Below are positions 5,185 through 25,786 of a stretch of DNA of 64,000 bases, in pieces. The stretch is from Actinomucor elegans (lineage: Eukaryota; Mucoromycota; Mucoromycetes; Mucorales; Mucoraceae). Positions within the stretch are counted from its first letter, which is position 1; every line of letters begins with the position of its first letter. Both the position numbers and the translations under genes were made by a program. The DNA lies in assembly GCA_026027325.1 (NCBI GenBank), contig JAMSLZ010000001.1, forward strand, positions 3,038,001 through 3,102,000, written 5' to 3'. Under the pieces are notes generated by a model. It did not search any database, was not told the DNA's origin, and saw nothing but the letters and a program-made list of their open reading frames with translations.

Positions 5185-5404
5185 GATAAACATTTACAAC
5201 TACTTAATATTTTTAACTTTCCTAAAGAATCAAGGCATAAATATAATGTTGCCTTTTTATCCATAAATAAAATGTTGGTTACTTGTTCTATTTTAGAATA
5301 AAATTTATTTATATTATTATTTGTATTCAAAAAAATCTATTATTTCCTAATTTTTTATATATTGTACTATTTTGAACATATTTCTGTAATACTAAATGTT
5401 CTTC
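5185..5404 (-). repeat. Terminal direct repeat, 3' copy of element copy 1
   Basis: 220 bp matching 7467-7687 in the same orientation with about two differences (one substitution and one base less in a T-run). On the minus strand it starts GAAGAACATTTAG and ends AATGTTTATC. Confidence 0.93.
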
Positions 5405-5415
5405 TTATTAATTGA

Positions 5416-6852
5416 TTAATTATTTTCTATTGATTTCCAATAATTCAAAATAGTATCATGTGATGTAAAATCTTTTTCTTTTACCCATGAATTATGTTCT
5501 TTACCATACTTTTTCCATTTTACAAAATATTCATATAAGTTCTTTACTTTTTTGTGTTTAATTATATATTGTATTTCATATATATTTTGATCATTATTAC
5601 TAGTGATATCTTCCTCCATTTGATCCATAATATCTATATTCACTTCATTTATATTTAAATTATTTAAAAATTGATTTTGTAATGATTTTATATCAACGAT
5701 ATTTTCTATTTTATATTGTGTTTTTAATGTTACTTCTTTATTCATTTCAATATTATTTTTATAATAATAATCAAAATTATCATTTAGCCATTTGTTGTAA
5801 TGGGCATTTTCTTCAATTCCAAATAACTCTGTAAAATATTTTATGTTCAGTAATACTATTGCTAATTTTAGCTGTATATTATATGTCTTATTATCTGTTA
5901 TTCTAATCTTATTTTGTCCACTAAATCTTTTAAAAATACTACCTAATTCTGCAAAATATTTTTCTATTTTTGACCTTAATCCACCTAATTCTTCATTGAA
6001 TTTTTTTTCATCTATGGTTAATTCAACTCCTTTATCTTTTTTTATAGGATAGCAAAAATTTTTCAAGGATATATTAAATCCAATATTACTAAATTTTTCT
6101 ATAAATTCTTTTACTGTGTTTTCATATAATCCATCAAAACATATACAATCTATTTCATTATAAAACTTATTGATATTTATGTCTAAAAGCATTTTATCAT
6201 CAGTATTATTTCTACAAGGTAAGGAATCAGATATATAAACACATATTCTATTAATATCTATAATAAATTGTGTATTTAATCCATTTCTTTTTAATTTATA
6301 CGAGAATAACTCTTTTTTATCTAGATTAATATCTTGATATGTTATACGATTATGGTGACCATCAATTAGTAATGTTACATTATCTAACATCATTGGATTA
6401 AATTTCTTAGCACAAAGTAATCTCAATGTATGTGTAGAAAAACATTTTTCTAATTTATTATTTATCCATTTTTCCAATAAATCATAATTATTTATATATA
6501 ATGATTGATATAATTTATAAAAACTAGTAGATGGAATATACATTTCCATTTCATTTATAGATTTTCCATTTAATAAATGTTCTAATAATATCAATACTTT
6601 ATCTGCTGTTATATATGGACCTGGTAGTTTTATATTGTTACATAAATCTGTCAAAAATACAAATGGAGCAATACTTCCTAATTTAATATATATATTTTTT
6701 TTAATTCTATCAATATTTGGTATACTCGTTATTTTAGATCTATGATATTTCAATTCAACTTTATATATATATTCATTTTTCATAAATTTCCAATACCTAT
6801 TGTAAATATTTCTGTATTCATTTTCAATTAATAAGTCTATATGAGTGTTCAT
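5416..6852 (-). CDS. DDE transposase (DDE_Tnp_4/Harbinger-like) with C-terminal chromodomain
   Basis: 478 aa from the first ATG (6852); the frame is open upstream to 6894 but only from TTG. A candidate RNase H-fold triad is visible: D164 in LLIDGHH, D240 in CICFDGLYENT and E297 in LRSKIEKYF. This spacing and order resembles the DDE_Tnp_4 (PIF/Harbinger) superfamily. A typical chromodomain occupies about 425-475 (YEIQYIIKH, YFVKWKKYG, SW, ILNYW). Chromodomains bind methylated histone tails and steer chromovirus integrases to heterochromatin, so targeted insertion is likely (inference). AAAATTGA lies at 6891-6898, 39 bp upstream of the ATG. This copy is intact; the partner copy at 17551 has a one-base deletion. 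Family assignment is by motif reading only. Confidence 0.8.
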   Translation of the reverse strand: MNTHIDLLIENEYRNIYNRYWKFMKNEYIYKVELKYHRSKITSIPNIDRIKKNIYIKLGSIAPFVFLTDLCNNIKLPGPYITADKVLILLEHLLNGKSINEMEMYIPSTSFYKLYQSLYINNYDLLEKWINNKLEKCFSTHTLRLLCAKKFNPMMLDNVTLLIDGHHNRITYQDINLDKKELFSYKLKRNGLNTQFIIDINRICVYISDSLPCRNNTDDKMLLDININKFYNEIDCICFDGLYENTVKEFIEKFSNIGFNISLKNFCYPIKKDKGVELTIDEKKFNEELGGLRSKIEKYFAELGSIFKRFSGQNKIRITDNKTYNIQLKLAIVLLNIKYFTELFGIEENAHYNKWLNDNFDYYYKNNIEMNKEVTLKTQYKIENIVDIKSLQNQFLNNLNINEVNIDIMDQMEEDITSNNDQNIYEIQYIIKHKKVKNLYEYFVKWKKYGKEHNSWVKEKDFTSHDTILNYWKSIENN

Positions 6853-6890
6853 AAACAAATAAAATGATGTATTTTTATATAAAGAGAAAT

Positions 6891-6898
6891 TCAATTTT
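6891..6898 (-). promoter_or_regulatory. AAAATTGA early-promoter-like motif upstream of the DDE-chromodomain gene
   Basis: AAAATTGA on the minus strand, 39 bp before the ATG at 6852 and followed by a TATATAAA-type stretch. A second copy (6943-6950) lies 52 bp upstream and overlaps the stop of the preceding gene, part of a 29-bp tandem duplication. Confidence 0.55.
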
Positions 6899-6942
6899 TA
6901 ATATTTTCTATATTTAATAAACTTTTATTTATATATGAAAAT

Positions 6943-7311
6943 TCAATTTTTAATATTTTCTATATTTTCCAAGAACTTATGATTTCTTTTTGCATAATCT
7001 AACCATGATTTAAAATTATAAATTTCTTTAATACTAACATATCCTTTTCTTAAACACCAGGATTTGAAATATTCATTTCTAACTTTTTCGTTATCATCTA
7101 AAATTGTTTTTATCACTAAATTGGCATGGATATTTGTATTGTTTTCACCAACATCATAGAAAGGACCACTATATAAAATTTTATCAATATTTTTTATATT
7201 TCCAACCCATTGCAGTATTTTCTTGTTTAATATTTCGGATGATTTATTCTTGACATCTTTTTTTTCAGGATTTAGAGTTAAAACCACAGCATAATAATAG
7301 ATTTTTTCCAT
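6943..7311 (-). CDS. Putative HUH/Rep-like endonuclease, minimal (122 aa)
   Basis: From the ATG at 7311; an upstream TTG frame to 7350 would overlap the preceding ORF. Motif order resembles the nuclease domain of rolling-circle Rep proteins. A first strand YAVVLTLNP (7-15) resembles motif I. A GENNTNIHANLVI segment with H62 resembles motif II, although only one His is present. A C-terminal helix WLDYAKRN with Y106, K108 and R109 resembles motif III (Y..K). No helicase domain is present, and 122 aa is the size of a bare HUH domain. The 3' end runs into a repeated AAAATTGA. An identical copy is at 17092-17460. The fold assignment is an inference; a divergent unknown protein remains possible. 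Confidence 0.5.
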   Translation of the reverse strand: MEKIYYYAVVLTLNPEKKDVKNKSSEILNKKILQWVGNIKNIDKILYSGPFYDVGENNTNIHANLVIKTILDDNEKVRNEYFKSWCLRKGYVSIKEIYNFKSWLDYAKRNHKFLENIENIKN

Positions 7312-7333
7312 TAAATATAATATTGATGTTATT

Positions 7334-7546
7334 TTAAAAATAATTCTCAAATATTATAGATACTTTTATATTTTCCAAAATATCATGCCAAGAATTAGAT
7401 GCCAAGGAAGTTGTTTTTAGATTTCTCAATGTGATTAAACGCAATGGAAGTCTAAAAATAGGACAAGATAAACATTTACAACTACTTAATATTTTTAACT
7501 TTCCTAAAAAATCAAGGCATAAATATAATGTTGCCTTTTTATCCAT
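7334..7546 (-). CDS. Small hypothetical protein of the direct-repeat element (70 aa)
   Basis: Starts at the first ATG (7546) inside the terminal direct repeat and continues into unique sequence, so the 3' repeat carries only its first half. Residues include MDKKATLYLCLDF and a CKCLSCP cysteine cluster; otherwise leucine-rich and basic. No family is recognised. It is the first of three same-strand genes and ends 23 bp before the HUH-like gene's ATG. The MITE at 25554-25786 holds a related short stretch on its minus strand. Confidence 0.5.
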   Translation of the reverse strand: MDKKATLYLCLDFLGKLKILSSCKCLSCPIFRLPLRLITLRNLKTTSLASNSWHDILENIKVSIIFENYF

Positions 7547-7687
7547 AAATAAAATGTTGGTTACTTGTTCTATTTTAGAATAAAATTTATTTATATTATT
7601 ATTTGTATTCAAAAAAATCTATTATTTCCTAATTTTTTTATATATTGTACTATTTTGAACATATTTCTGTAATACTAAATGTTCTTC
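7467..7687 (-). repeat. Terminal direct repeat, 5' copy of element copy 1
   Basis: 221 bp, same orientation as 5185-5404. It contains the presumed promoter and the first codons of the 70-aa ORF. Outer flank on the minus strand is the gypsy integrase ...TCTGATAAT. Confidence 0.93.
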
Positions 7688-10600
7688 ATTATCAGATTGA
7701 CAAATACGTGGAACACCAAAATCACCATAGACTTTAACCAACTCTTTTGCAACAGTATCGGATTGTTTGTTCTTCAGAGGTCTGAGAATAACGAATTTGG
7801 AACAAATATCTGTTATAACCAACATGTAAACATATCCTTCTTCAGTTACATCAAAAGGTCCAGCTAAGTCAATAGCAATATGGTCAAATGGCCGATGAGC
7901 TACTACATTAGATAACGGGTGATAACCTCTTTTACTAATGTTGTGCTTCTGGCATTCAATACATGAACTAACAATGTCTTTAGCTTCTGCGTAGATATTC
8001 GTCCAATGGAGACCTTGTGAATGCAAATCTCGAACAATTGCTTGCGATCCAAAGTGACCAAGGGAATGCGATTCTCTTAATAGTGCATCTCTCTCTTCTT
8101 CAGGAGGAGTCATATACCCAGTCAGTTCATCTCTAGTTTCCACGAGTTTAGTTGCAAGTACGTTAATAGATTTATCTTGGCTAAATCGCTTCTTCCTTAT
8201 AGTGAATCTGTTTTTAGGGTTTCGTTTGATCTTCGGCGCATCAATATCCTCCACCAGTTTGTGTTCATCTTCTAAAGGTGGATACAAACGGCTCAAGATA
8301 TCAGGTAATTTGTTCAAGATACCGGGGATATGCACGACATCGAAGTCAAAATCCAATAATGTTTCGATCCATCCAGTCATCATAGGATTGGCAATCTTTT
8401 GCGTGTGTAAGTATACCAGTGCTTTGTGATCTGTAAAAACAGTAAACTTATTGCCCCAGATATACTTTCGAAATTTTAATAGTGCTAATACGACTGCATA
8501 TAATTCTCGTTTAGTCGTGCTCCAGCGACGCTGTGAAGGTGACAAAGAACTAGATACAAAACCAACATAAAAGTCTTGACCAACATCATTCTTCTGAAAC
8601 AACACTGCTGCGACACCATAGAGCGATGCATCAGTAGCCACATAAAATTTCTTTGACAAATCAGGATAATGCAGCATCATTTTTGATTGCAGAATCTCTT
8701 TTATTGCATTAAAGCTTTGGGTATGTCTGTTGGTCCACAACTCTTCGACATTCTCAGCGTTTACTAAACTGGTAAGTGGTTCTGCTACTCTGGAAATCAT
8801 CGGGATGAATTCTCTCAGGTAGTTTACCAACCCCATAAACTGCTGGATGTGCTTCTTACTTTTATTAGGAAGTGGCCATTTTGCAACATTGGTAAGCTTT
8901 GATTGATCAACACGAACTCCTGAAGCGTCCACTACAAATCCCAACATACGAACTGAATGTTGAAACCATGAACACTTGGATTCTTTCAGGATTAAATTCG
9001 CGGAATTTAATCTCTCAATCACAAATTTTACATCTCTCGCATGCTGTTCGATACTTTCACTGGCAACAATGCAGTCATCCACGAAGTTCTGAACGCAATC
9101 AACGCCTTCAAACAAGGTCGCCATGACCTTTTGAAACTGTGAGGTTAACATTTTCACTCCAAAGCACGCTTTTTGAAAAGAAAAGCCATTGCCATTATAA
9201 GTGAACGATAACTTATGTACATCCTCAGGTGCCACTTTGAAGCGATGATATGCATTCGACAAATCCAAAGTTGTAAACACCTTTTTTCCGGCCAAGTTAT
9301 CAAAGATATCTTTAACCAGAGGGACGGGGAAGTTAAATGTTGGAGGTAAAATTTGATTCAATGATCTTACATCTAAACACGCTCTATGACTAACAATCTC
9401 GCCATCTTTGTTGCGTTTAGGAACAAGTAGTAATGGACTGTTAAAAGACGTATTCACTCGAGATCTAATGATAGTGCCTGTTTCTAGCCATTCTTTGATC
9501 TGTTTATCAAGAACTGGTCTCAGTGCATAAGGAATGGGATATTGACGTCTATACGCCGTTGCACCTTCCTTGGTTGGTAAATGTACAATTGATTCAGGTA
9601 GTGGGCAAGAAGATGTCATAGGTATACTCTGATTGATCTCTAATGACTCTTTAATGATACTCATAAACTCTGCTCTTTGCTCAGGCGTACCAGCTGGCGA
9701 ATTATCAGGTTCATGTTTCTTTTCTGATTCAATGTTCAAGTTATCAAAAATGGCTTTATCGCTCAAGGCAGCATCAGAATGTGCATGATCGTCTTTTATA
9801 CGAAAAGCCACTCCAGTCAAGCCAATATTCATCTTGGGAAGAATATCTGTGCCAAGTAGGATATCAAACTCGAAACCTTGGTTAAAGTTCATAACTTCAA
9901 ATGAATGTTTGAACTTAATGCCATTAGCGTACTTTATTTCCAAAGGAACGGTAATACCAATTCTCTTTGCAGAATTCTCATGCGATAAGAAATTGTAGGA
10001 ACCAGATAACTTATATATTTTATTTATATGTAGTTTATTCTTTAATGAAGATAAACTGATGAAGCTACAACTACTTCCGGTGTCCACCTGCCCTAGAAGC
10101 CGCTCTGATTCTACAATCAATGGTGTACATAAATTAAATGCGTCATTAGCTTTAAACTTGTCACTCTTATTCTTATTAAGATACTTACAGTCATAACTCG
10201 CGTTCTCAAGCTCGGAACTGGTCATGTCAATATCTTCCTGGACTTGTTCTTCAATGGACTTCTCATTACTTGGAGCCCTCGAGACAGCCAACACCGTGTT
10301 GCTTTTCTCAGCACACTTATGACCAGGATGCCATGGTGTCTGGTGGCATTTCCAACACTCTCTTTCCTTGGTCTTCTTGTCAGCGGATGGTCTATCCCCT
10401 CGCTTCTTAACCGTGTAGCAATCCTTCGTATCATGAGTTCCGTTCTTGCCGTGTTGCACGCAGAAATAGGACTTGAATACTTTATTGTTGCTATGAGCGG
10501 TGCGATGCATAGCATGCCCTTGCTTGGTATCCTTGGCCTTGTCTCTTCTGTAGCTTCTCTCGTGTTGCTGCTCTCTTGGCGCACCGGGAAACAAAGAAAC

Positions 10601-10704
10601 TGCTTCATAATAGGTGGAATGGTCATCTCCAAGGATATCACGCCCAACTTGCGTAATCTGATCAACTGTATACTTCTCTGCAGCAGTGCCTGACAATCCA
10701 GCTC
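7688..10704 (-). pseudogene. Ty3/gypsy gag-pol, C-terminal gag to integrase, truncated (gypsy B)
   Basis: Continuous frame on the minus strand. Order: end of Gag with a Cys/His knuckle (CWKCHQTPWHPGHKC, about 10309-10358); aspartic protease (VDTGSS, about 10085); reverse transcriptase with FVDD (about 9075-9085); RNase H (ATDASLYG, about 8630); integrase zinc module (about 8065-7950); and integrase core up to the second Asp (CQSDN), where the direct-repeat element starts at 7687. The integrase end, chromodomain and 3' LTR are missing. Upstream it joins 12255-12419 and then 14503-15203 once two Merlin insertions are removed; reading frame is preserved across both. Its 5' LTR is at 15229-15729. 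The apparent start at 10696 is a TTG inside the protein, not a real start. Confidence 0.92.
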
Positions 10705-10766
10705 GGAGGTATCCAAAGATAATGTACAGAATTAAGTTTTAAACTCAGTTAATTAAATTTTTTAAA

Positions 10767-10774
10767 AAAATTGA
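10767..10774 (+). promoter_or_regulatory. AAAATTGA motif upstream of Merlin 1 transposase
   Basis: AAAATTGA followed by an AT-only tract, 22 bp before the ATG at 10797. Confidence 0.55.
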
Positions 10775-10796
10775 ATTTTTTTTATAATAAAAATAA

Positions 10797-11675
10797 ATGT
10801 TTACAGAACCATATGTAAATTTAAAAGAACTTTTTGATAGTGAAGATAAAGCTTTGCTCTATTTAATAGAAAATAATTATGTAAATAAATATGAAAAATG
10901 TAGATTTTGCGATAGTGATACTAAACTTTATATAAATATAAAAGTATATAAATGTAAAAATTATAAATGTAGAAAATCATTTTCACCATTACGTGGAACC
11001 ATATTTTCTAAAATGAAATTACCATTAAATATACAATTACATCTTTTAAATTATTATATATTAAAAATGCCAAATAGTAGTATTGCTACTACATTAAAAA
11101 TATCAAATAATACAGTAACAAATTATAATAGAATATTTAGAAAATATATAAAAGATAAAATTAATTTTAGTAGAAATTTTAAAATTGGTGGTAGAAATAA
11201 AATTGTTGAAATAGATGAAACTAAAATAGCCAAAAGAAAATATAATAAAGGACATATAGTTGAAGGTGGTTGGGTAATTGGAGGCATTGAAAGGAGTATA
11301 TTAAAAAACAAAATGAAAAATGAAAATAAAAAGATATTTTTATTACCAATCAAAGAAAGAAATATTAATAATATAGATTTAATTATAAAAAAATATGTTA
11401 AAAAAGGTACTACTATATATACAGATTGTTGGAAAGGATATAATAATTTAAGAAATATAGGATATAAGCATAAAACAGTTAATCATAAAAAATATTTTAA
11501 AGATCCAATAACAGGTGTACATACAAATACAATCGAAGGTACATGGTGTGCATTAAAACAAAGTATTGTACCAAGAAATAGAACTAAAAAAGATTTAATT
11601 TTATATTTGCGAGAATACCATTGGAGAAAAAAAAATCGAGAATATAATTTATGGAAAATGTTTTTAAAAGATTAA
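10797..11675 (+). CDS. Merlin (IS1016/ISXO2-like) transposase
   Basis: 292 aa from ATG. An N-terminal zinc ribbon has C35/C38 (CRFC) and C53/C58 (CKNYKC). A short helix-turn-helix-like part follows (ISNNTVTNY). The DDE core has D140 in VEIDETK, D210 in IYTDCWKGY and E247 in HTNTIEGTW. The G-G-E-R segment and VNH..F.DP.TGVHTN are typical of the IS1595/IS1016-Merlin group, which catalyses cut-and-paste with 8-9-bp duplications. No frame defects. Homologous to 13490-14371 and 19592-20473, but the most divergent of the three. Confidence 0.93.
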   Translation: MFTEPYVNLKELFDSEDKALLYLIENNYVNKYEKCRFCDSDTKLYINIKVYKCKNYKCRKSFSPLRGTIFSKMKLPLNIQLHLLNYYILKMPNSSIATTLKISNNTVTNYNRIFRKYIKDKINFSRNFKIGGRNKIVEIDETKIAKRKYNKGHIVEGGWVIGGIERSILKNKMKNENKKIFLLPIKERNINNIDLIIKKYVKKGTTIYTDCWKGYNNLRNIGYKHKTVNHKKYFKDPITGVHTNTIEGTWCALKQSIVPRNRTKKDLILYLREYHWRKKNREYNLWKMFLKD

Positions 11676-11693
11676 AATTTATATAAATAAAAA

Positions 11694-11701
11694 AAAATTG
11701 A
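11694..11701 (+). promoter_or_regulatory. AAAATTGA motif between Merlin 1 transposase and its accessory ORFs
   Basis: Sits 18 bp after the transposase stop and 42 bp before the ATG at 11744. The same arrangement (motif just after the transposase stop) recurs on the minus strand in Merlin 2 at 13458-13465. Confidence 0.5.
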
Positions 11702-11743
11702 ATTTGAATATAAAAATAAATAAATTGATTAATATGAATTATC

Positions 11744-11848
11744 ATGTCTGAAATTAATCCATTTTTGAATAAAAAGTTTATAAAAGATTTGAAATGTTCA
11801 TTTATACCACAACAAATATTTAAAAATAAAAATATGATTTTGATATAA
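11744..11848 (+). CDS. Small ORF in Merlin 1 (34 aa)
   Basis: Starts MSEINPFLNKKF and ends at a TAA that overlaps the next start (TAATG at 11846-11850). No family recognised. It may be a real short gene or the front half of one frameshifted gene with the next ORF. Confidence 0.3.
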   Translation: MSEINPFLNKKFIKDLKCSFIPQQIFKNKNMILI

Positions 11849-12003
11849 TGGATATAGATTTTAAATTAAAAAAAAATGATATTGTTTTAATCACTGTAAA
11901 ATTAATTAATGGAAAAAAATATGAATATGCATATATATTAAAAACTAATAATATAACAGAAAATATAATTAGTGAAAATGATATGATAATTGATAATGAT
12001 TAA
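11848..12003 (+). CDS. Small accessory ORF in Merlin 1 (51 aa)
   Basis: MDIDFKLKKNDIVLITVKL…, alternating polar and hydrophobic residues that suggest beta strands. It lies between transposase and right terminus, the position held in Merlin 2 and 3 by a different 98-aa gene. Function unknown. Merlin elements usually carry only a transposase. Confidence 0.4.
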   Translation: MDIDFKLKKNDIVLITVKLINGKKYEYAYILKTNNITENIISENDMIIDND

Positions 12004-12254
12004 ATTAAATATATATATAATGTCCTTTATATGACAATAAACTGTTGGTGGTAGGTGGAATAGAAAATAAATTAAGAATTAAATAATTGGAGGAATTTAT
12101 GGGATTCAACATGGCCATATAGACACAAATATTATATTTTTAAAATTTAACATTTTTAAAATGATATTTTTGGTAATATAATCCATTTTTTAAAATATAA
12201 AAATATATAATCACATGATCACAATAATCTTGTACACTATCTTGATAATGAACC

Positions 12255-12419
12255 TCCAGCTCTAGCAAGAGTCACTCTGATCAACGTTTGTACTGGTCTT
12301 GTAAGAGATGCCAAAAAACGATCCGCTACTCGTGGACAATCCCTGGGTAAACCGGCATTATACATGGCTAACTGAAATCGTTTCGCATAATCACTGACTG
12401 ACTCCTTGTTAGACATGGT
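12255..12419 (-). pseudogene. Middle segment of gypsy B gag, isolated between two Merlin insertions
   Basis: Minus strand reads SNKESVSDYAKRFQLAMYN…LPRDCPRVADRFLASL…, typical of a retrotransposon Gag capsid region. Both edges are Merlin target duplications (TCCAGCTC and GACATGGT). In the ancestral element it joins 14503-15203 to 7688-10704 in frame. Confidence 0.9.
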
Positions 12420-12728
12420 GGGTGATTACCAAACGAGGTCTCAGATTTAATTTATACTAATAATACATAATATTTTATTTTACACTTCATAGGGAAATGC
12501 TTAACATTTTTTGTTTTTTAAGCTTTTAATATGACCAATAAATATATCAAAAAGTATTTAAATAATTACTATTACTAATTTCTAAAATAATTCTTTTTTT
12601 CATATTTTTATCATAAATTCTACTTTTTCCTTTATTTTCAATATTTTATTTTGTTTTTCTATTAAAACTATTTAATTTTATATATCAAGTAATAGATAAT
12701 AAAAATATTAATTAAAAATATATAATAA

Positions 12729-12928
12729 CAATAAAATTATATTTAAAATGTTTCTCATATGATGAATATAATGAAAATTTATTAGAAATAGATATTGTGA
12801 AGGAAGAAATAAAAAACTTAGAAAATAAAAATTTAATTTAGATAATAATTATCAGCATGATATAAATGTTAAAATTAATGGAATATATATTGAAAAATTT
12901 AATTTAGAAAATATATTTAAATTATAAT
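12729..12928 (+). pseudogene. Decayed small ORF in Merlin 2, convergent with the 98-aa gene
   Basis: Two adjacent frames (…YDEYNENLLEIDIVKEEIK… to a TAG, then DNNYQHDINVKINGIYIEK… to TAA at 12926-12928) would join after a one-base shift. No ATG is found in the first frame. No family recognised; could be chance in AT-rich DNA. Confidence 0.25.
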
Positions 12929-13218
12929 TTAAGTTTTTTCATGATGGGTGCGATTTCATCAAGTATCATATTATTCTTATTATCTAATGTTTTTCTTTTT
13001 ATACCTTTGTTTTTATCTTTATTATATGTCTTAAATTCATATACTTTTCTTAATCTTTTATTTGAACCATTTTTTTTCATGTAGATTTCATAACACCCAT
13101 CTTTTTGCTTTATTTTGTATTCTGCTAAATCATATTTTTTCATATCTTTTATAATTATACTTCGTTTAATATTGTATTTATATTTATCATCTACAATAAT
13201 ATTAAATATTTCATCCAT
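12922..13218 (-). CDS. Merlin 2 accessory protein (98 aa), conserved with Merlin 3
   Basis: Starts MDEIFNIIVDDKYKYNIKR and is very lysine-rich, with a central KQKDGCYEIYMKKNGSNKR and a KVYEFKTYNK block. A clear homologue lies at the same position in Merlin 3 (21014-21309, one-base deletion). Conservation of KIKQKDGC.EIY, KKNGSNK and VYEFKTYNK between copies whose termini differ suggests protein-level selection at some time. AAAATTGA lies 24 bp upstream. Function unknown; a basic nucleic-acid-binding accessory factor is possible (inference). Confidence 0.7.
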   Translation of the reverse strand: MDEIFNIIVDDKYKYNIKRSIIIKDMKKYDLAEYKIKQKDGCYEIYMKKNGSNKRLRKVYEFKTYNKDKNKGIKRKTLDNKNNMILDEIAPIMKKLKL

Positions 13219-13241
13219 TTCTTTTTTATATTATTACTTTT

Positions 13242-13249
13242 TCAATTTT
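13242..13249 (-). promoter_or_regulatory. AAAATTGA motif upstream of the Merlin 2 accessory gene
   Basis: Minus-strand AAAATTGA, 24 bp before the ATG at 13218. A further copy at 13458-13465 lies just after the transposase stop. Confidence 0.55.
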
Positions 13250-13489
13250 TTTTATTTTTTTATAATAGATATATTTAATCCCACTCATAATGTAATACCC
13301 AATTGTCTCTGATCTATTACATAATCATTGTGTCTTAAATAGGCTAGTTTACTGACTTAGTCAGGTCCTTGTAATAAGAATAATGAATATCAAATATGCA
13401 TTTCACATTTATAACTATCAATATATTTTCTATCATATTTTTAATAAATATAAAAATTCAATTTTTTGCATTTTTTATGTAAATTAAAA

Positions 13490-14371
13490 TTAATCCTTTA
13501 AAAACTTTTTCCATACGTTATACTCTCTATTTTTCTTACGCCATTGATATTCTTTTAAATACAATACTATATCTTTTTTATTTCTATTTCGTGGTATTAT
13601 ACTTTGCTTTAAGCCATTCCATGTGCCTTCAATTGTATTTGTATGCACACCTGTATTTGGATCTTTAAAATGCTTTGAATGATTTACAGTTAAATGTTTG
13701 TATCCTATATTTTTCAAGTTATTATACCCTTTCCATAAATCCGTATATATTGTTGTACCTTTTTTTACATATCTTTTTATAATTAAATCAATATTATCAA
13801 CATTTCTTTCTTCAATGGGTAATAAAAACATTTTTTTGTTTTCATTTTTTATTTTATTTTTTAGCATACTTCTTTCGATACCACCAATTACCCAAGCACC
13901 TTCTACCTTATGCCCCTTATTATATTTTCTTTTTGCAATTTTACTTTCATCGATTTCTACAATTTTATTTCTACCTCCAATTTTAATATTTCTGTTACCT
14001 AACAATTGTTTATTTTTCAAGTATTTTCTGAATATTTTATTGTATGATGACACTGTATTTTTGCTAATTTGCAAACTTGATGCTATAAAGGAAGAAGGTG
14101 CTTTTCCAAGAAAAAGATATAATATGTGTAATTGAGTATTTAAAGGTAAAGTTAAATTATTAAAAATTGTTCCTTTCAATGGTGATATTGCTTTCCTACA
14201 TTTATAATATCTACAAACATATAATTTTTTATTTAAGTTTAATTTAGTTTCATGTTCACATTTATTACACTTTATATGTTTATTAACGTAATCATTACTA
14301 ATTAAATATAATAGTGCTTCTTTTTCATCGTCGAATATTTTTTTTAAAGATTTATATGGTTCTATAAACAT
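13490..14371 (-). CDS. Merlin (IS1016/ISXO2-like) transposase, copy 2
   Basis: 293 aa from the ATG at 14371. The frame is open to 14500 upstream, but that part is terminal sequence; MFIEPYK matches the start in Merlin 3. Zinc-ribbon cysteines (CNKCEHE, CRYYKC) are present. The DDE residues lie in VEIDESK, IYTDLWKGY and HTNTIEGTW. It shares the start, length and most residues with 19592-20473. Intact, so possibly still able to mobilise relatives. Confidence 0.93.
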   Translation of the reverse strand: MFIEPYKSLKKIFDDEKEALLYLISNDYVNKHIKCNKCEHETKLNLNKKLYVCRYYKCRKAISPLKGTIFNNLTLPLNTQLHILYLFLGKAPSSFIASSLQISKNTVSSYNKIFRKYLKNKQLLGNRNIKIGGRNKIVEIDESKIAKRKYNKGHKVEGAWVIGGIERSMLKNKIKNENKKMFLLPIEERNVDNIDLIIKRYVKKGTTIYTDLWKGYNNLKNIGYKHLTVNHSKHFKDPNTGVHTNTIEGTWNGLKQSIIPRNRNKKDIVLYLKEYQWRKKNREYNVWKKFLKD

Positions 14372-14423
14372 CTGCAATTTTATTAAATCCTTTTTATTTT
14401 TAATTTTAATTTGTAAAAAAAAT

Positions 14424-14431
14424 TCAATTTT
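14424..14431 (-). promoter_or_regulatory. AAAATTGA motif upstream of Merlin 2 transposase
   Basis: Minus-strand AAAATTGA within AAAAAATTGAATTTTTTTT, 52 bp before the ATG at 14371. Confidence 0.55.
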
Positions 14432-14502
14432 TTCATATAACAATAAAATTTGTGGTAGTAGGAGTTTCAATATGGACCTGAGAGTTCCTTTGGGATACAT
14501 CC

Positions 14503-15203
14503 GACATGGTCATCGTGAATACTTGGTCCGTGTATCTTCTTGTCACCAAAGAAGAACCGTGGTGTCTGACAAACTCTTGACGAGCTTCAACCCAAGTCTG
14601 GCATTTCTTCAAATCACTCTCAGCCCAAGCCTTATCACCATGGGGGAGGCACAAAGGTAAAAGTCTCTTCCATACTCGTTCAATGGTCAGGGAGGACGAA
14701 GCGATCACATCTTCAAATTCTCGTAGGAAATGCTCAACCGACTCAAATACCTCATATCCTGGGAATGGTCTAATGGCACTTGTAACTAATTGGAATTTTG
14801 GAAGATCGCGGCGATTCAAGGTCAATCCGGCGTCGTCAGAGCGATCCATCTTGCCCATCATCGAACTGTACTCTTGGATTTTGGTAAGCATCCTCTTGGT
14901 ACGTTCAATACCTTCCATAGCTCTGTCTGCAGCAGCTCCATCACCAGCTACTCTAGCGCGACTGAACTCTCGGAGGTGGCGAGCAACATCTGCACGAAGT
15001 TCGGCAATGTTGTTCTGCACTAGTTGCATCTCATCCATAGCCTCGGATGGATACTCAGAGTCAATAACCATGGACCCAGCAGCAATAGAACCAAAGTTAG
15101 CATCAGGATTGGATAAACTTGATTCATCCAAGAATAAGCCATCAAAGTCATTGATAGGAGTAGTAGCAGCGGAACCATTGGCAACAGTAGTAGTAGGATT
15201 CAT
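14503..15203 (-). pseudogene. gypsy B gag, N-terminal segment
   Basis: True start ATG at 15203 (MNPTTTVANGSAATT…), 26 bp inside the 5' LTR. It contains a coiled region (NNIAELRADVARHLREF) and the retrotransposon Gag start (ALIRPFPGYE-like, VEHFLREFEDVI, WVEARQEFVRHHG). It is cut at the Merlin 2 target duplication and resumes at 12419. Apart from the insertions the frame is intact. Confidence 0.9.
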
Positions 15204-15214
15204 CTTGACAGTGA

Positions 15215-15223
15215 TTGATATTA
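15215..15223 (-). other. Candidate self-priming site of gypsy B
   Basis: In the leader, right after the LTR and an oligo-T tract, the RNA-sense sequence TAATATCAA is exactly complementary to TTGATATTA at 15285-15277 within the 5' LTR, roughly 80 nt after TATAAAAGG. No tRNA-type TGG primer site is present. See the finding on self-priming. Confidence 0.4.
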
Positions 15224-15228
15224 AAAAA

Positions 15229-15729
15229 TGTTGTGTACGTGGATAGAAAGAGGATTATAATAGAAGAACAGAAGAATAATATCAAAACTGTGGTAAGTCT
15301 TTTTATTTCCAAAATTAAATTTCGAATGATCTTTTTCTAATCAGCTAAGAGCTCGTCCTTTTATACTTTTCAGCTTGCTGCGGTTGACTAATGATATTAT
15401 GGGTATACGTAAGCTAGTAGCTTGTTGACTGCGCGGCTCATAGTGACTTGCTGATATTCCAAGATGATGATGATGGCCGACATACTGCGGTACCATATCG
15501 GACTGTAAATAAAGGTAAGCATTTTATCTCGGCATAACACTCGATTAGGAATTTGTCTTTTACTGCTATTTCTTGTTTTATAATAAAGCGTAATAATTAC
15601 ACAGTTGTTTATATTCTGGATTCGGGTAATAATGAGTTACATCTTCAAGCTATTCATAAAGGTGGGCATATGGCTACCAAAGCCTATACAACCTCTTCTT
15701 TACTGATATAATCATGAGCGTTTACAACA
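15229..15729 (-). repeat. 5' LTR of gypsy B (LTR family A, 501 bp)
   Basis: Plus-strand ends are TGTTGTGTACGTGG and GCGTTTACAACA. On the minus strand it precedes the gag ATG, which sets its orientation. It contains TATAAAAGG (minus strand, about 15362). It is inserted in another gypsy gag (15730-16656). Copies of this family: 21983-23002, 25010-25512, 28350-29070, 37374-37873. Confidence 0.9.
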
Positions 15730-16656
15730 ATCATTATACACTTCTTTTGTCATGTCAGTCAGCGTGTCAATGTGGAGTTTTTGCTTCTTGGAAAGCGAAA
15801 GTCTTGCGATCTTTAGTTTACCAAGAAACGTATCAGGCAAAGCCTTCAAAAACTTATCGACGAGGACTGGTTCAGGGAGGCATTGATCAACTGCACGGCG
15901 ACGTAAATCATTAAAGCGATCTATGAAAGCTTCAATCGACTCAGCCTTATTCATTCTGATATTAACCAATGCAAGTGCACAAGCAGCGCGATCTTCATCG
16001 ATTGTTTTACCAAAACGAGCAGTGATTGCAACCTTGAATTGTTCCCAAGTAGGTGGCTTCTTTTGGAGATCAAAATCAACCAAAAACTTGTCATACCAAC
16101 GACGTTGAGCGGAAGTCAACACTTGTGGCAACAGACGTAAGAAATTGGTATCAAAATCTAATCTGTGTGCGAACATGACATCTTCAAACTTCACTATGCA
16201 TGCCGTAATGTCAACGAATACCGGAGCGTTACGTTCAACAACGTTACCTTCCCATTGAAAAATAGGTAAAGTAGATGGCACAACCGATGAATACCTGATT
16301 GGAGCGTCTCGATCAACAGGGATCTTTGCAACAACCTTATTGGTGTTATCAAGGGTGGAGAGAAGCATGGTAAGGTCAGTGTTCTTAGAAGCATACTGCT
16401 GACGAACAGTGTTTAGCTCAGGACCTTCTGGTAACGAAACCACTTGTACAGAGAGATCGAAAACTTGCTCTTGCAATTTAGCGATGGACTCCCTTAAGCG
16501 ATCCATTGAAAGACCAGGAACAATTGACTTGACAAAGCCATTAGAAACTACAGCATCAGGGGCTGCAGTGGTGGATGTCTTGAGGTTGTCATTTGGACCT
16601 TCAATATCCATGTTTATATCAGTTGATTGATCAACAAGTTGACCAATGCTTGACAT
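15730..16656 (-). pseudogene. gypsy gag fragment related to the 504-bp-LTR family
   Basis: ATG at 16656 (MSSIGQLVDQSTD…). The body matches the Gag of 31052-36289 (FAHRLDFDTNF, EDRAACALALVNIR, FIDRFNDLRRRAVDQCLPEPVLVDKFLKALP in register). It is cut at 15729 by the gypsy B LTR. About 60 bp upstream of its ATG the second direct-repeat element is inserted. Only gag remains. Confidence 0.9.
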
Positions 16657-16715
16657 GTTTGAATGGATGTACTTGAGGCACCATCGACAGGACCAGATCC
16701 ATTGGAAGAGACAGA

Positions 16716-16936
16716 GAAGAACATTTAGTATTACAGAAATATGTTCAAAATAGTACAATATATAAAAAAATTAGGAAATAATAGATTTTTTTGAATACAA
16801 ATAATAATATAAATAAATTTTATTCTAAAATAGAACAAGTAACCAACATTTTATTTATGGATAAAAAGGCAACATTATATTTATGCCTTGATTTTTTAGG
16901 AAAGTTAAAAATATTAAGTAGTTGTAAATGTTTATC
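16716..16936 (+). repeat. Terminal direct repeat, 5' copy of element copy 2
   Basis: Starts GAAGAACATTTAG, ends AATGTTTATC; it repeats in the same orientation at 18998-19218. Confidence 0.93.
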
Positions 16937-17069
16937 TTGTCCTATTTTTAGACTTCCATTGCGTTTAATCACATTGAGAAATCTAAAAACAACTTCCTTG
17001 GCATCTAATTCTTGGCATGATATTTTGGAAAATATAAAAGTATCTATAATATTTGAGAATTATTTTTAA
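16857..17069 (+). CDS. Small hypothetical protein of the direct-repeat element (70 aa), copy 2
   Basis: Identical in sequence to 7334-7546 (MDKKATLYLCLDF…). The ATG lies in the repeat. The upstream open frame to 16791 begins only with TTG. Confidence 0.5.
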   Translation: MDKKATLYLCLDFLGKLKILSSCKCLSCPIFRLPLRLITLRNLKTTSLASNSWHDILENIKVSIIFENYF

Positions 17070-17091
17070 AATAACATCAATATTATATTTA

Positions 17092-17460
17092 ATGGAAAAA
17101 ATCTATTATTATGCTGTGGTTTTAACTCTAAATCCTGAAAAAAAAGATGTCAAGAATAAATCATCCGAAATATTAAACAAGAAAATACTGCAATGGGTTG
17201 GAAATATAAAAAATATTGATAAAATTTTATATAGTGGTCCTTTCTATGATGTTGGTGAAAACAATACAAATATCCATGCCAATTTAGTGATAAAAACAAT
17301 TTTAGATGATAACGAAAAAGTTAGAAATGAATATTTCAAATCCTGGTGTTTAAGAAAAGGATATGTTAGTATTAAAGAAATTTATAATTTTAAATCATGG
17401 TTAGATTATGCAAAAAGAAATCATAAGTTCTTGGAAAATATAGAAAATATTAAAAATTGA
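17092..17460 (+). CDS. Putative HUH/Rep-like endonuclease (122 aa), copy 2
   Basis: Same protein as 6943-7311. Motif I-like VVLTLNP, motif II-like IHANLVI and motif III-like LDYAKRN are intact. The stop codon TGA is part of an AAAATTGA (17453-17460). A 29-bp segment covering the gene end is tandemly repeated at 17436-17464 and 17488-17516. Confidence 0.5.
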   Translation: MEKIYYYAVVLTLNPEKKDVKNKSSEILNKKILQWVGNIKNIDKILYSGPFYDVGENNTNIHANLVIKTILDDNEKVRNEYFKSWCLRKGYVSIKEIYNFKSWLDYAKRNHKFLENIENIKN

Positions 17461-17504
17461 ATTTTCATATATAAATAAAAGTTTATTAAATATAGAAAAT
17501 ATTA

Positions 17505-17512
17505 AAAATTGA
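17505..17512 (+). promoter_or_regulatory. AAAATTGA motif upstream of the DDE-chromodomain gene, copy 2
   Basis: Second unit of the 29-bp tandem repeat, 38 bp before the ATG at 17551 and followed by TTATATAAAAA. Confidence 0.55.
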
Positions 17513-17550
17513 ATTTCTCTTTATATAAAAATACATCATTTTATTTGTTT

Positions 17551-18986
17551 ATGAACACTCATATAGACTTATTAATTGAAAATGAATACAGAAATATTTA
17601 CAATAGGTATTGGAAATTTATGAAAAATGAATATATATATAAAGTTGAATTGAAATATCATAGATCTAAAATAACGAGTATACCAAATATTGATAGAATT
17701 AAAAAAAATATATATATTAAATTAGGAAGTATTGCTCCATTTGTATTTTTGACAGATTTATGTAACAATATAAAACTACCAGGTCCATATATAACAGCAG
17801 ATAAAGTATTGATATTATTAGAACATTTATTAAATGGAAAATCTATAAATGAAATGGAAATGTATATTCCATCTACTAGTTTTTATAAATTATATCAATC
17901 ATTATATATAAATAATTATGATTTATTGGAAAAATGGATAAATAATAAATTAGAAAAATGTTTTTCTACACATACATTGAGATTACTTTGTGCTAAGAAA
18001 TTTAATCCAATGATGTTAGATAATGTAACATTACTAATTGATGGTCACCATAATCGTATAACATATCAAGATATTAATCTAGATAAAAAAGAGTTATTCT
18101 CGTATAAATTAAAAAGAAATGGATTAAATACACAATTTATTATAGATATTAATAGAATATGTGTTTATATATCTGATTCCTTACCTTGTAGAAATAATAC
18201 TGATGATAAATGCTTTTAGACATAAATATCAATAAGTTTTATAATGAAATAGATTGTATATGTTTTGATGGATTATATGAAAACACAGTAAAAGAATTTA
18301 TAGAAAAATTTAGTAATATTGGATTTAATATATCCTTGAAAAATTTTTGCTATCCTATAAAAAAAGATAAAGGAGTTGAATTAACCATAGATGAAAAAAA
18401 ATTCAATGAAGAATTAGGTGGATTAAGGTCAAAAATAGAAAAATATTTTGCAGAATTAGGTAGTATTTTTAAAAGATTTAGTGGACAAAATAAGATTAGA
18501 ATAACAGATAATAAGACATATAATATACAGCTAAAATTAGCAATAGTATTACTGAACATAAAATATTTTACAGAGTTATTTGGAATTGAAGAAAATGCCC
18601 ATTACAACAAATGGCTAAATGATAATTTTGATTATTATTATAAAAATAATATTGAAATGAATAAAGAAGTAACATTAAAAACACAATATAAAATAGAAAA
18701 TATCGTTGATATAAAATCATTACAAAATCAATTTTTAAATAATTTAAATATAAATGAAGTGAATATAGATATTATGGATCAAATGGAGGAAGATATCACT
18801 AGTAATAATGATCAAAATATATATGAAATACAATATATAATTAAACACAAAAAAGTAAAGAACTTATATGAATATTTTGTAAAATGGAAAAAGTATGGTA
18901 AAGAACATAATTCATGGGTAAAAGAAAAAGATTTTACATCACATGATACTATTTTGAATTATTGGAAATCAATAGAAAATAATTAA
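17551..18986 (+). pseudogene. DDE-chromodomain transposase, frameshifted copy
   Basis: As 5416-6852, but one A is missing from the A-run after NTDDK (about 18209), giving a premature stop after KCF and a second frame to 18986. Candidate D (IDGHH) lies before the break; the second D, the E and the chromodomain lie after it. Otherwise nearly identical to copy 1, so the break is recent or a sequencing slip in a homopolymer. Confidence 0.85.
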
Positions 18987-18997
18987 TCAATTAATAA

Positions 18998-19218
18998 GAA
19001 GAACATTTAGTATTACAGAAATATGTTCAAAATAGTACAATATATAAAAAAATTAGGAAATAATAGATTTTTTTGAATACAAATAATAATATAAATAAAT
19101 TTTATTCTAAAATAGAACAAGTAACCAACATTTTATTTATGGATAAAAAGGCAACATTATATTTATGCCTTGATTTTTTAGGAAAGTTAAAAATATTAAG
19201 TAGTTGTAAATGTTTATC
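18998..19218 (+). repeat. Terminal direct repeat, 3' copy of element copy 2
   Basis: Matches 16716-16936. It includes the first codons of the 70-aa ORF and then stops at ...TTTATC before AGAGGAAGC. Confidence 0.93.
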
Positions 19219-19463
19219 AGAGGAAGCATAAGAGGCAGACATAGTAATAGAAAGGTAAGCTTTTGAGATAGAGAGTAGAGTAATAAACCAAAGAGAGACT
19301 TGGCAAGGAAATTGGTAGTAGACCGAAATAGAGTTTTGCGTAGTAAAATTGATTAAAAAAAAATGTTGAATCCGAAGTAGCTAAAGACCAAAGATTCACG
19401 TAATAATAATAATAATAAGACTTGTATATGTAATCAGATTACTGATTGGTAATAAGATAGTTA
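19219..19463. other. Unassigned spacer with a short AAT repeat
   Basis: No gene seen. Purine-rich at the left edge; a short (AAT)n microsatellite lies at about 19400-19417. It ends at the Merlin 3 terminus. Confidence 0.5.
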
Positions 19464-19591: not shown

Positions 19592-20473
19592 ATGTTTATA
19601 GAACCATACAAATCTTTGAAAAAAATATTTGATGATGAGAAGGAAGCACTATTGTATTTAATTGAAAACAACTATGTTAACCATTATGAAAAGTGTTTAA
19701 AATGTAACCATGATATTAAATTAAATATAAATAAAAAATTATATGTTTGCAGATTTTATAAATGTAGAAAAGCTATATCACCTTTAAAAGGTACAATATT
19801 TAATAAATTAACATTATCATTAAATATACAATTACATATACTATATTATTTTCTTGGAAAAGTGCCATGTTCATTTACTGCATCAACATTAGGAATATCA
19901 AAGAATACTGTGTCATCTTATAATAAATTATTTAGAAAACATTTAAAAAATAAGCAATTATTAAGTAATAGAAATATTAAAATTGGGGGTAGAAATAAAA
20001 TTGTAGAAGTAGATGAAAGTAAAATAGCTAAAAGAAAATATAATAGAGGTCATAGAGTAGAAGGTGCATGGATTATTGGAGGTGTAGAAAGAAGTATGTT
20101 AAAAAATAAAATAAAAAACGAAAATAAAAAAACTTTTTTTGTCCCTATTAAAGAAAGAAATATTGATAATATAGATTTAATTATTAAAAAATATGTAAAA
20201 AAAGGAACCACAATATATACAGATTTATGGAAAGGATACAATAATTTAAAGAATATAGGATATAAACATATGACTGTAAATCATTCCAAAAATTTTAAAG
20301 ATCCAATAACAGGTGTACATACTAATACTATTGAAGGTACTTGGAATGGATTAAAACAGAGTATAATACCCAGACATAGAAACAAAAAAGATATATTATT
20401 GTTTTTAAAAGAATATCAATGGAGGAAAAAAAATAGGGAATATAATTTATGGAAAAAGTTTTTGACAGATTAA
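19592..20473 (+). CDS. Merlin (IS1016/ISXO2-like) transposase, copy 3
   Basis: 293 aa from ATG. Zinc-ribbon CLKC and CRFYKC. DDE residues in VEVDESK, IYTDLWKGY and HTNTIEGTW. Very close to 13490-14371. Full length with no frame break. Confidence 0.93.
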   Translation: MFIEPYKSLKKIFDDEKEALLYLIENNYVNHYEKCLKCNHDIKLNINKKLYVCRFYKCRKAISPLKGTIFNKLTLSLNIQLHILYYFLGKVPCSFTASTLGISKNTVSSYNKLFRKHLKNKQLLSNRNIKIGGRNKIVEVDESKIAKRKYNRGHRVEGAWIIGGVERSMLKNKIKNENKKTFFVPIKERNIDNIDLIIKKYVKKGTTIYTDLWKGYNNLKNIGYKHMTVNHSKNFKDPITGVHTNTIEGTWNGLKQSIIPRHRNKKDILLFLKEYQWRKKNREYNLWKKFLTD

Positions 20474-25553: not shown

Positions 25554-25786
25554 GACGGACATCTTGTTTCATATAAATTTGGTACGTATATTAGGAGAAA
25601 GCATAAATATAATATTGCTTTATTTCATGCAAAATGGAACAGTTGCTTTCTTGATAATGTTTATTATACTTAATAATAGTTTTAATTTATGAAAAAAAGT
25701 TATAAATTATAAAGTATATGGATATATTAAAAAAAATAGGACATATACAATAGATTTAAAAGATATATTAATTGTAGATATCCGTC
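25554..25786. mobile_element. 233-bp AT-rich MITE, TSD TCA
   Basis: Termini GACGGACATCT and (reverse complement) GACGGATATCT, flanked by TCA at 25551-25553 and 25787-25789. Excision restores the gag frame (FLS-TFGG). On its minus strand a short stretch around TATTATATTTATGC resembles the 70-aa ORF of the direct-repeat element. A 3-bp duplication fits Harbinger-like mobilisation. Confidence 0.7.

Follow-up and report, generated by a model that had tools for sequence, protein, structure and literature searches.

Mobile elements and their copies in the window

The element described here, family 1, is tentatively read as a DNA transposon of the DDE type, bounded by long terminal direct repeats like those of a retrovirus; it may be released as a circle and re-integrated, with a Rep-like protein as an optional helper. 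At the level of sequence, it is characterized by fixed ends, target duplications, empty sites, solo repeats and dimers that bear duplications, and the lack of a reverse transcriptase. Family 1 is a mobile element that measures about 2,503 bp; the 36.5-Mb genome contains at least 41 copies of it, which are near-identical or broken. The window (the whole analysed stretch of 64,000 nucleotides) had been described as carrying two near-identical copies, and comparison of the window with itself and with the genome placed them at 5185-7687 (minus strand) and 16716-19218 (plus strand). The features are as follows.

5185..7687, minus: element copy 1, family 1, complete, 2,503 bp (self and genome comparison)
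7467..7687, minus: copy 1 terminal direct repeat at the upstream end, 221 bp, GAAGAACATTTA...TAAATGTTTATC
5185..5404, minus: copy 1 terminal direct repeat at the downstream end, 220 bp with two differences
7514..7537, minus: copy 1 upstream-repeat hairpin AAGGCA-ACATTATATTTA-TGCCTT, candidate Rep site
5232..5255, minus: copy 1 downstream-repeat hairpin, same as the upstream one
7334..7546, minus: copy 1 70-aa ORF across the inner end of the upstream repeat, gene status doubtful
6943..7311, minus: copy 1 Rep-like accessory protein of 122 aa with D53, H62-x-N64 and Y106; the coordinates include the stop codon (ORF, genome matches, model, fold comparison)
5416..6852, minus: copy 1 478-aa DDE_Tnp_4 transposase with C-terminal chromodomain, intact
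5845..6366, minus: copy 1 DDE_Tnp_4 domain, PF13359, E 2.1e-8 (Pfam)
5434..5580, minus: copy 1 chromodomain, PF00385, E 9.3e-8 (Pfam)
16716..19218, plus: element copy 2, family 1, complete, 2,503 bp (self and genome comparison)
16713..16715, plus: copy 2 left 3-bp target duplication AGA
19219..19221, plus: copy 2 right 3-bp target duplication AGA
16716..16936, plus: copy 2 terminal direct repeat at the upstream end, 221 bp
18998..19218, plus: copy 2 terminal direct repeat at the downstream end, 221 bp, identical to the upstream one
16866..16889, plus: copy 2 hairpin, upstream repeat
19148..19171, plus: copy 2 hairpin, downstream repeat
16857..17069, plus: copy 2 70-aa ORF, gene status doubtful
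17092..17460, plus: copy 2 122-aa Rep-like protein, intact
17551..18986, plus: copy 2 gene for the DDE-chromodomain transposase, with a frame break near 18210
25554..25786, minus: solo terminal repeat of the related L041-type subfamily, 97%, with TCA/TCA flanks (by eye) and a hairpin at 25598

Terminal direct repeats and target sites

Family 1 is bounded by terminal direct repeats of 221 bp; the preliminary description had overlooked these as well as the 3-bp target duplications. Each repeat has short inverted ends of its own. The repeats start with GA and end with TC, and the extreme ends of the element share about 12 imperfect inverted bases. A 3-bp target duplication was found at 21 of 24 family-1 copies; this exceeds chance, since moving the comparison outward by 1-5 bases left a 3-bp match at only 1-2 of the 24. 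Counted by distinct flank pairs, the duplication is present in 20 of 23. Two of the 21 duplications are TAA or TTA. Copy 1 of the window has none (flanks aat and tta). In the other subfamilies, the duplication was detected by script at 11 of 13 elements, or at 12 of 13 if the L041 end is set by eye at the last shared base.

Unoccupied sites were matched by joined flank pairs, 10 of 20 without gaps (196-197 nt, 95.9-100% identity) and an eleventh with a one-base gap. A family-3 element is nested in a family-1 copy, and its flanks are identical to family 1 across 117 nt once one 3-bp repeat is taken out. All six solo repeats examined are identical to the 221-bp reference, and five of them are bordered by a 3-bp duplication. 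Tandem dimers with an outer duplication occur at L049 (AGT) and L030 (ATA). Dimers and solo repeats can also be obtained by ordinary recombination. Twenty full family-1 copies differ at only 8 columns when a private insert of L021 is set aside; divergence within repeat pairs was therefore dropped as proof of repeat renewal in this family, the copies being almost identical and the comparison without power.

The transposase and related subfamilies

The 478-aa gene is intact in copy 1 when read from the first ATG (492 aa from TTG), as had been stated. The same statement fails for copy 2, where a one-base difference near 18210 splits the frame into ORFs 17509-18219 and 18210-18986. The assignment of this protein as a DDE transposase with a chromodomain was borne out by Pfam (DDE_Tnp_4, E 2.1e-8; Chromo, E 9.3e-8), and the proposed D164/D240/E297 residues are all kept in the one relative aligned, that of family 3, which is 40% identical. 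PF13359 scored above the cut-off in family 1 and in all six relatives scanned. No reverse transcriptase was found among the ORFs of the family-1 element (ORF list and Pfam), and viral contigs searched with the transposase alignment gave no match.

The 70-aa ORF, presented earlier as a third gene, begins within the terminal repeat and extends beyond it. A genome search at E<=10 returned 41 full and 55 partial matches, the partial ones starting at its first residue, and this pattern is expected from the family-1 repeats alone. The ORF was rejected as a gene, since it matches only where these repeats would produce it; six codon differences were counted by eye against family 2 and the L041 type in the stretch that family 1 shares with them, of which four alter the amino acid and all keep the hairpin paired.

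The direct-repeat plan recurs in 10 of the 13 related subfamilies examined, among which the L040 type and the type at 35% identity (L023) have ends that are only partly placed. Repeat pairs within the direct-repeat subfamilies are 97.5-100% identical, and 5 of 45 comparisons across families gave any blastn match at E<=1e-3. The same transposase clade of the same genome includes elements with direct repeats, with inverted repeats and apparently with none, which makes the origin and near-identity of terminal repeats in DNA transposons directly testable.

Distribution and predicted fold of the 122-aa protein

An intact 122-aa ORF, as claimed, is present in both window copies, and the protein has 63 matches in the genome. 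Its proposed linkage to the transposase holds within family 1, where a transposase lies no more than 900 nt downstream of 40 of the 41 Rep-like matches; the remaining match is interrupted by the nested family-3 element. The linkage does not extend across the transposase family at large: of the 13 subfamilies examined, only 3 showed the gene, which makes it an accessory instead of the defining partner. At least three gains or losses of the gene are forced by well-supported branches of the transposase tree. The Rep-like proteins of families 1 and 2 are 70% identical, the transposases of the same families are 44% identical over 78 aa (best alignment), and the gene order is inverted between them. 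Judged by these sequence relations, the 122-aa protein is an exchangeable accessory. It was ruled out as the origin of the direct repeats, because no Rep-like gene was detected in seven of the ten direct-repeat subfamilies.

The protein had been described as HUH/Rep-like, and this description is supported only in part. Two models predicted a ferredoxin-like fold, with the order strand-helix-strand-strand-helix-strand-helix, that is compatible with Rep endonucleases, and Y106 lies in a model helix (100-110). However, motif II is H-x-N instead of HUH, reading H-A-N, H-A-N and H-V-N in the three families, which lacks the two histidines (or His/Gln) that flank a hydrophobic residue in the HUH motif. 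Comparison with the viral structure library gave unnamed top rows (E 1.2e-4 and 3.7e-4), the best named rows being replication initiators at rank 8 and rank 7. Among solved structures, S6-type ribosome chains came first, and Rep proteins were tied with S6 and other ferredoxin-like folds. The PDB and VIA rankings bear only on the HUH families listed there.

In Pfam, the 122-aa proteins of families 1 and 3 had no match to a Rep family; the 122-aa ORF gave only a sub-threshold DUF3685 row, the 92-aa ORF gave nothing, and no Myb match appeared. PHROGs returned weak matches for the Rep-like proteins of all three families, none with a function, and the PDB sequence search yielded only two chance-level rubrerythrin rows. 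The genome had no match to PF02407, a search whose control also matched nowhere. No Rep relatives were confirmed in viral or prokaryotic contigs by scans made with two short peptide patterns each.

The hairpin in the terminal repeats

The hairpin lies in the only blastn-detectable similarity of the family-1 repeat to the family-2 and L041-type repeats (31 and 34 nt). These three share a near-identical 12-nt loop, and two of the six stem pairs change on both sides among them, in a compensatory manner. The 16-nt identity between families 1 and 2 was reached in none of 300 shuffled pairs; the covariation is weak alone, as 45 of 500 shuffles of only three sequences do as well. The hairpin of family 3 has a different loop: an equally strong hairpin of some kind arose in 44 of 1000 shuffles of the repeat, and none of the 1000 had one with a 12-nt loop. 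When a common filter was applied (6-bp stem, at least three G/C), families 1 and 3 passed and family 2 and the L041 type failed, and one of six Rep-less repeats (L042) passed. L042 is the nearest transposase relative of family 1; no Rep-like gene was found in it, and its repeat has no family-1-type hairpin. In the L041 type, the hairpin is present and no Rep gene was found. The Rfam search of the window and six loci at gathering scores gave no match. The hairpin is a candidate Rep site. Because it sits in the terminal repeats, the earlier idea of a hybrid element stays plausible; that the Rep-like protein replicates the DNA and the DDE enzyme integrates it is likewise plausible, though unproven.

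Possible mode of transposition and alternative explanations

In the reading tentatively preferred here, the transposase would join the outermost 3' ends of the two repeats to staggered target DNA. Once integrated, the element (repeat-body-repeat) would correspond to a 1.1-mer with terminal redundancy, formed from a one-repeat circle of 2,282 bp. Such circles could be released via recombination between the repeats. Alternatively, in the families carrying the Rep-like protein, it may nick the hairpin in each repeat, leading to replicative release from two origins. For re-integration of the one-repeat circle, the transposase would nick the single repeat at both of its borders, on opposite strands; both 3' ends would be joined and the gaps filled by the host, so that two repeats are restored. 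Restoration of this kind would explain the near-identity of the repeats of each element. The Rep-like protein would be an optional, exchangeable helper travelling with its own hairpin and not the cause of the direct-repeat plan.

A possible though rather doubtful alternative is a cut-and-paste DDE transposon in which the 122-aa protein, derived from Rep or otherwise ferredoxin-like, is a helper with no catalytic activity that binds the hairpin region and neither nicks nor replicates DNA. The Myb-like protein of PIF/Harbinger elements offers a role model for such a helper. The H-x-N motif, the solved-structure ranking, which does not favour Rep, and the nearest transposase relatives, in which the 122-aa gene was not detected, all agree with an idle helper. 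So does the fact that D53 is the only acid preceding motif II kept in all three families. The family-2 gene has a stop before the tyrosine and still counts 16 equal-scoring genome matches; however, family 2 also has a gutted transposase, and it must therefore be moved by others. Families 1 and 3 have H62 and Y106 in common although their proteins are only 43% identical overall, which speaks against an idle helper, and such a helper by itself leaves the near-identity of the repeat pairs unexplained.

The boldest reading extends the circle model to a class of eukaryotic DNA elements and seems unlikely at present. Such elements would replicate by rolling circle with their own Rep and hairpin origin, would be integrated by their own DDE-chromodomain enzyme and would form two repeats from one. 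The Rep and hairpin cassette would hop between transposon backbones, and the cycle would be retrovirus-like but run wholly in DNA.

The terminal repeats could also be MITE-like units, mobile alone, two of which flank the genes as in a composite transposon. This is improbable, even if each repeat has inverted ends and solo repeats carry 3-bp duplications. In the L039 type, the transposase gene and a gene for 194 aa occupy two modules, which inverted repeats delimit, and in L009 there is one outer duplication (AAT). However, no target duplications were seen at the inner borders of the repeats, the order is constant among the family-1 copies examined, and recombination between repeats accounts for the solo repeats equally well.

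It is very improbable that the element is a derivative of an LTR retrotransposon moved through RNA by gypsy machinery in trans: the terminal direct repeats, the solo repeats and the gypsy element adjoining copy 1 (window 7622-10696) would fit, but family 1 has its own DDE_Tnp_4 transposase, full length and without stops in 26 of 90 genome matches, its repeats run GA...TC with a 3-bp duplication, and the plan recurs in 10 subfamilies sharing the transposase.

Comparison with known systems

PIF/Harbinger elements typically have terminal inverted repeats, TTA or TAA duplications in the main and a Myb/SANT-like second protein. Family 1 resembles them in its PF13359 transposase with conserved D, D and E, in its 3-bp target duplications and in the small second protein present in some families. 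Unlike them, it has long terminal direct repeats in place of inverted ones, a C-terminal chromodomain on the transposase, varied duplications that are not mainly TTA/TAA, and a second protein that has no Myb match and is Rep-like in predicted fold.

With LTR retrotransposons and retroviruses, the element shares terminal direct repeats with short inverted ends, DDE integration with a short duplication, solo repeats and tandem copies sharing a repeat. In contrast to them, it has no reverse transcriptase, Gag or RNase H, and its DDE_Tnp_4 enzyme, 3-bp duplication and GA...TC repeats are different. If the preferred reading is true, direct repeats and an integrase-like DDE enzyme coexist without reverse transcription; LTR-like anatomy would then not be enough to establish a retroelement, and annotation pipelines would put elements of this kind in the wrong class.

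The Rep proteins of CRESS-DNA viruses and plasmids are similar to the 122-aa protein in the predicted fold order, the histidine opening the third strand and the tyrosine in the last helix, and in the conserved-loop hairpin upstream of the gene. The 122-aa protein differs in its H-x-N motif, in having no helicase domain and in its location inside a DDE transposon, and no sequence match was found. If they work as proposed, the exchangeable Rep-like gene and its hairpin would form a natural bridge from circular single-stranded DNA replicons to DDE transposons. Helitrons and Replitrons are eukaryotic elements with an HUH-type protein, as family 1 would be if the 122-aa protein is one. They insert without target duplication, whereas family 1 makes target duplications, has a DDE enzyme and lacks a helicase. 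Bacterial composite transposons with direct insertion sequences likewise have direct repeats, each bearing both transposon ends; however, the family-1 repeats encode no transposase, and the transposase gene lies between them.

Family 1 in the window

The preliminary description had proposed two near-identical copies of a mobile element, each with three genes, in which a Rep-like (HUH) protein accompanies a DDE-chromodomain transposase. Self-comparison bore out the pair, since near-identity spans the entire length of both copies. The gene content held in part. Copy 1 encodes the 122-aa Rep-like protein followed by a 478-aa protein with DDE_Tnp_4 and a chromodomain, and the transposase frame of copy 2 is broken near 18210. 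Retroelements are abundant in the window, which points to a eukaryotic host. The genome searched is the 36.5-Mb assembly of 27 contigs, in which the window is C1 3,038,001-3,102,000.

Features of the window
3087-4583, LINE-type reverse transcriptase
5185-7687, minus strand, family-1 copy 1
7622-10696, gypsy-type polyprotein
10797-11675, plus strand, ISXO2/IS1595-type transposase ORF, 292 aa
13490-14500, minus strand, ISXO2/IS1595-type transposase ORF, 336 aa
16716-19218, plus strand, family-1 copy 2
19592-20473, plus strand, ISXO2/IS1595-type transposase ORF, 293 aa
25554-25786, minus strand, L041-type solo repeat (a related subfamily), hairpin inside, TCA on both sides

The three ISXO2/IS1595-type DDE transposase ORFs (PF12762) are Merlin-like. 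Two pairs of ~250-bp inverted repeats, with arms 98-99% complementary, lie at 2088-2336/3048-3296 and 38114-38371/38830-39087.

Ends, target sites and solo repeats

Both termini of each copy are formed by one 221-bp repeat in direct orientation. The repeat begins with GAAGAACATTTA and finishes with TAAATGTTTATC; its two ends therefore mirror each other as imperfect inverted repeats. Both ends could be examined in 24 family-1 copies, with the tandem dimer L049 counted once and locus L024 excluded for its cut or altered right side. A 3-bp duplication flanks 21 of the 24; L016 and L025 have a 4-bp match in its place, and window copy 1 has no flanking duplication. In a control with the comparison shifted outward by 1-5 bases, only one or two of the 24 showed a 3-bp match. 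L011 and L018 have the same flanks, and distinct flank pairs with a duplication number 20 of 23.

The flanks of 20 copies were joined, one 3-bp repeat being omitted, and matched to genome sequence. An unoccupied site was matched without gaps over 196-197 nt (95.9-100% identity) by 10 of the 20 pairs, and with a one-base gap by that of L016. For nine, including both window copies, no empty site was found in the sequences searched. At L033, a family-3 copy is inserted inside a family-1 element, and its empty site matches over 117 nt. Elements encoding the DDE enzyme insert precisely, with a 3-bp duplication.

The repeat search scored 40 of 101 candidates and gave at least 41 matches. Forty of them are 100% identical across all 221 bases, and a partial one reaches 84%. 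Six of the 40 are, by reading, solo repeats; all six were fetched and are identical to the reference repeat. Five of these six have 3-bp duplications (AAT, ATT, ATT, ATT, TAA), and L045 has none. The tandem dimers L049 (family 1) and L030 (family 2) contain three repeats and two bodies each, within a single outer 3-bp duplication (AGT and ATA, respectively).

Twenty full family-1 copies differ in only eight alignment columns, a private insert of L021 being set aside, which places the amplification of the family in the very recent past.

Related transposase subfamilies

Transposase searches gave at least 90 matches (89 of 427 candidates scored) and at least 99 (99 of 217 scored), the survey being a lower bound. 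From these lists 13 types were hand-picked, with one or more members of each examined. Ten have long terminal direct repeats, 97.5-100% identical within pairs.

Lengths of terminal direct repeats
Family 1: 221 bp
Family 2: ~233 bp
Family 3: ~290 bp
L034/L013: ~400-418 bp
L035: 221 bp
L036: 239 bp
L037: ~224-241 bp
L038: 293 bp
L041: ~233 bp
L042: 260 bp

Among the 13 direct-repeat elements compared, a script detected a 3-bp duplication at 11, and at 12 once the right end of L041 was placed by eye at the last shared base; the second element of L013 has none. Family 2 lies close to the L041 type, with 87% identity between the two repeats across 176 columns. The family-3 transposase (422 aa; L029:1893-3161, with a further copy in L033) gave no chromodomain match in a domain scan of its ORF.

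Long inverted repeats characterise two types: L039 and the one of 35% identity in L023/L016. The L040 type showed no long repeat, although an empty site inside the window demonstrates its insertion. In the L039 type two modules, one with the transposase and one with a 194-aa gene, form a composite; 40 bp separate them, and each lies within its own inverted repeats (207-bp and 202-bp, respectively).

Occurrences of the L039-type composite
L009:2817-8387
L039:1-2884
L041:1-4053

The composite in L009 has one outer duplication, AAT, and between L009 and L039 both modules are reversed relative to the 40-bp linker. The 194-aa protein has no Pfam match and 17 genome matches, some only pieces.

Distribution of the Rep-like gene

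The 122-aa protein gave 63 whole-genome matches, sorted by hand into 41 of family 1 (the linkage count), 17 of family 2 (including a partial, more divergent one), two of family 3 and three excluded fragments. Whether the genes always travel together received a divided answer. In family 1, 40 of the 41 Rep-like matches have a transposase within 900 nt downstream, and at C21:329516, the 41st, a nested family-3 element separates the two genes. Conversely, 51 of the 90 listed transposase matches were judged family 1, of which three have no upstream Rep-like match (the copy interrupted by the family-3 element and two fragments). Families 1-3 are the only ones of the 13 types in which the Rep-like gene was found. 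When the family-1 and family-3 proteins were used to query the whole genome, no further convincing locus emerged, although a copy that had diverged strongly could escape such a search; weak extra matches lie at C21:668457 (33 residues, E 0.008) and C24:2449944 (E 0.86).

A maximum-likelihood tree was built for the 13 transposases, with family 2 occupying 39% of columns. On it the distribution of the Rep-like gene requires three changes, which well-supported branches enforce. Family 1 pairs with L042 and family 2 with L041, and no Rep-like gene was seen in either partner. Thus the gene has either moved between backbones or suffered many losses. Families 1 and 2 share 70% identity in the Rep-like protein and 44% in the transposase (over 78 aa of the best alignment), and this disagreement favours exchange over repeated loss. 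In family 2 the Rep-like gene is oriented against the transposase.

Sixteen equal-scoring family-2 matches have one TAA within the Rep-like gene; in L031 it precedes the Tyr position, and the transposase of L031 is internally deleted, its middle missing. With such a stop and such a transposase, family 2 is non-autonomous; its members (L030-L032) are probably mobilised in trans by the L041 type.

A hairpin as candidate Rep site

The terminal repeats contain a stem-loop: AAGGCA-ACATTATATTTA-TGCCTT in family 1, AAAACA-ACATTATATTTA-TGTTTT in family 2 and AAAGCA-ATATTATATTTA-TGCTTT in the L041 type. By blastn the family-1 repeat resembles the other two solely over 31-34 nt around this hairpin. The 16-nt identity between families 1 and 2 was unreached in 300 shuffled pairs (maximum 14). 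Both partners change in two of the six stem pairs, and 18 of 18 cells pair, covariation that was equalled in 45 of 500 shuffles and, with three sequences only, is weak taken alone. Shuffling the family-1 repeat gave an equally strong hairpin in 3 of 1000 cases, and one that also had a 12-nt loop in 1 of 1000. The same strength filter excludes family 2 and the L041 type, which have too few G/C; among six Rep-less repeats L042 alone passes, with an unrelated hairpin. The pattern (two mismatches or fewer) had 222 genome matches vs 6 for a reversed control, the first 100 places being mostly copies of the same repeats, among the matches listed.

Rep-less L034 and L042 repeats share other short similar stretches, one of which looks, by eye, able to form a different hairpin.

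Family 3 has a hairpin of its own, likewise with a 6-bp stem and a 12-nt loop; its loop sequence differs. The distance from hairpin to Rep-like start codon is ~202 bases in family 1, ~211 in family 2 and ~127 in family 3. The family-1 hairpin is missing from the repeat of L042, the nearest transposase relative of family 1. Our reading is that family 1 may have acquired Rep together with its candidate site. The L041 type, however, has the hairpin without the gene, and joint acquisition would there need loss or supply in trans.

Proposed mechanism

The repeat-body-repeat form may act as a 1.1-mer able to release a one-repeat circle. Release could proceed by recombination between the repeats, which would leave solo repeats of the kind seen, or by Rep action at the two hairpins. 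The transposase would then perform integration. Two repeats could be regained from the single two-ended repeat if opposite strands were nicked at its borders, with subsequent joining and gap filling.

Placement among known systems

In anatomy the element resembles LTR retroelements, but it is not one. Its transposase domain and 3-bp duplication place it nearest to PIF/Harbinger. Typical PIF/Harbinger elements have no long direct repeats, duplications that are mainly TTA/TAA and a Myb-like partner. The element differs in all three respects, with long direct repeats, varied duplications and no Myb-like partner, and for this reason it is assigned to PIF/Harbinger only with reserve.
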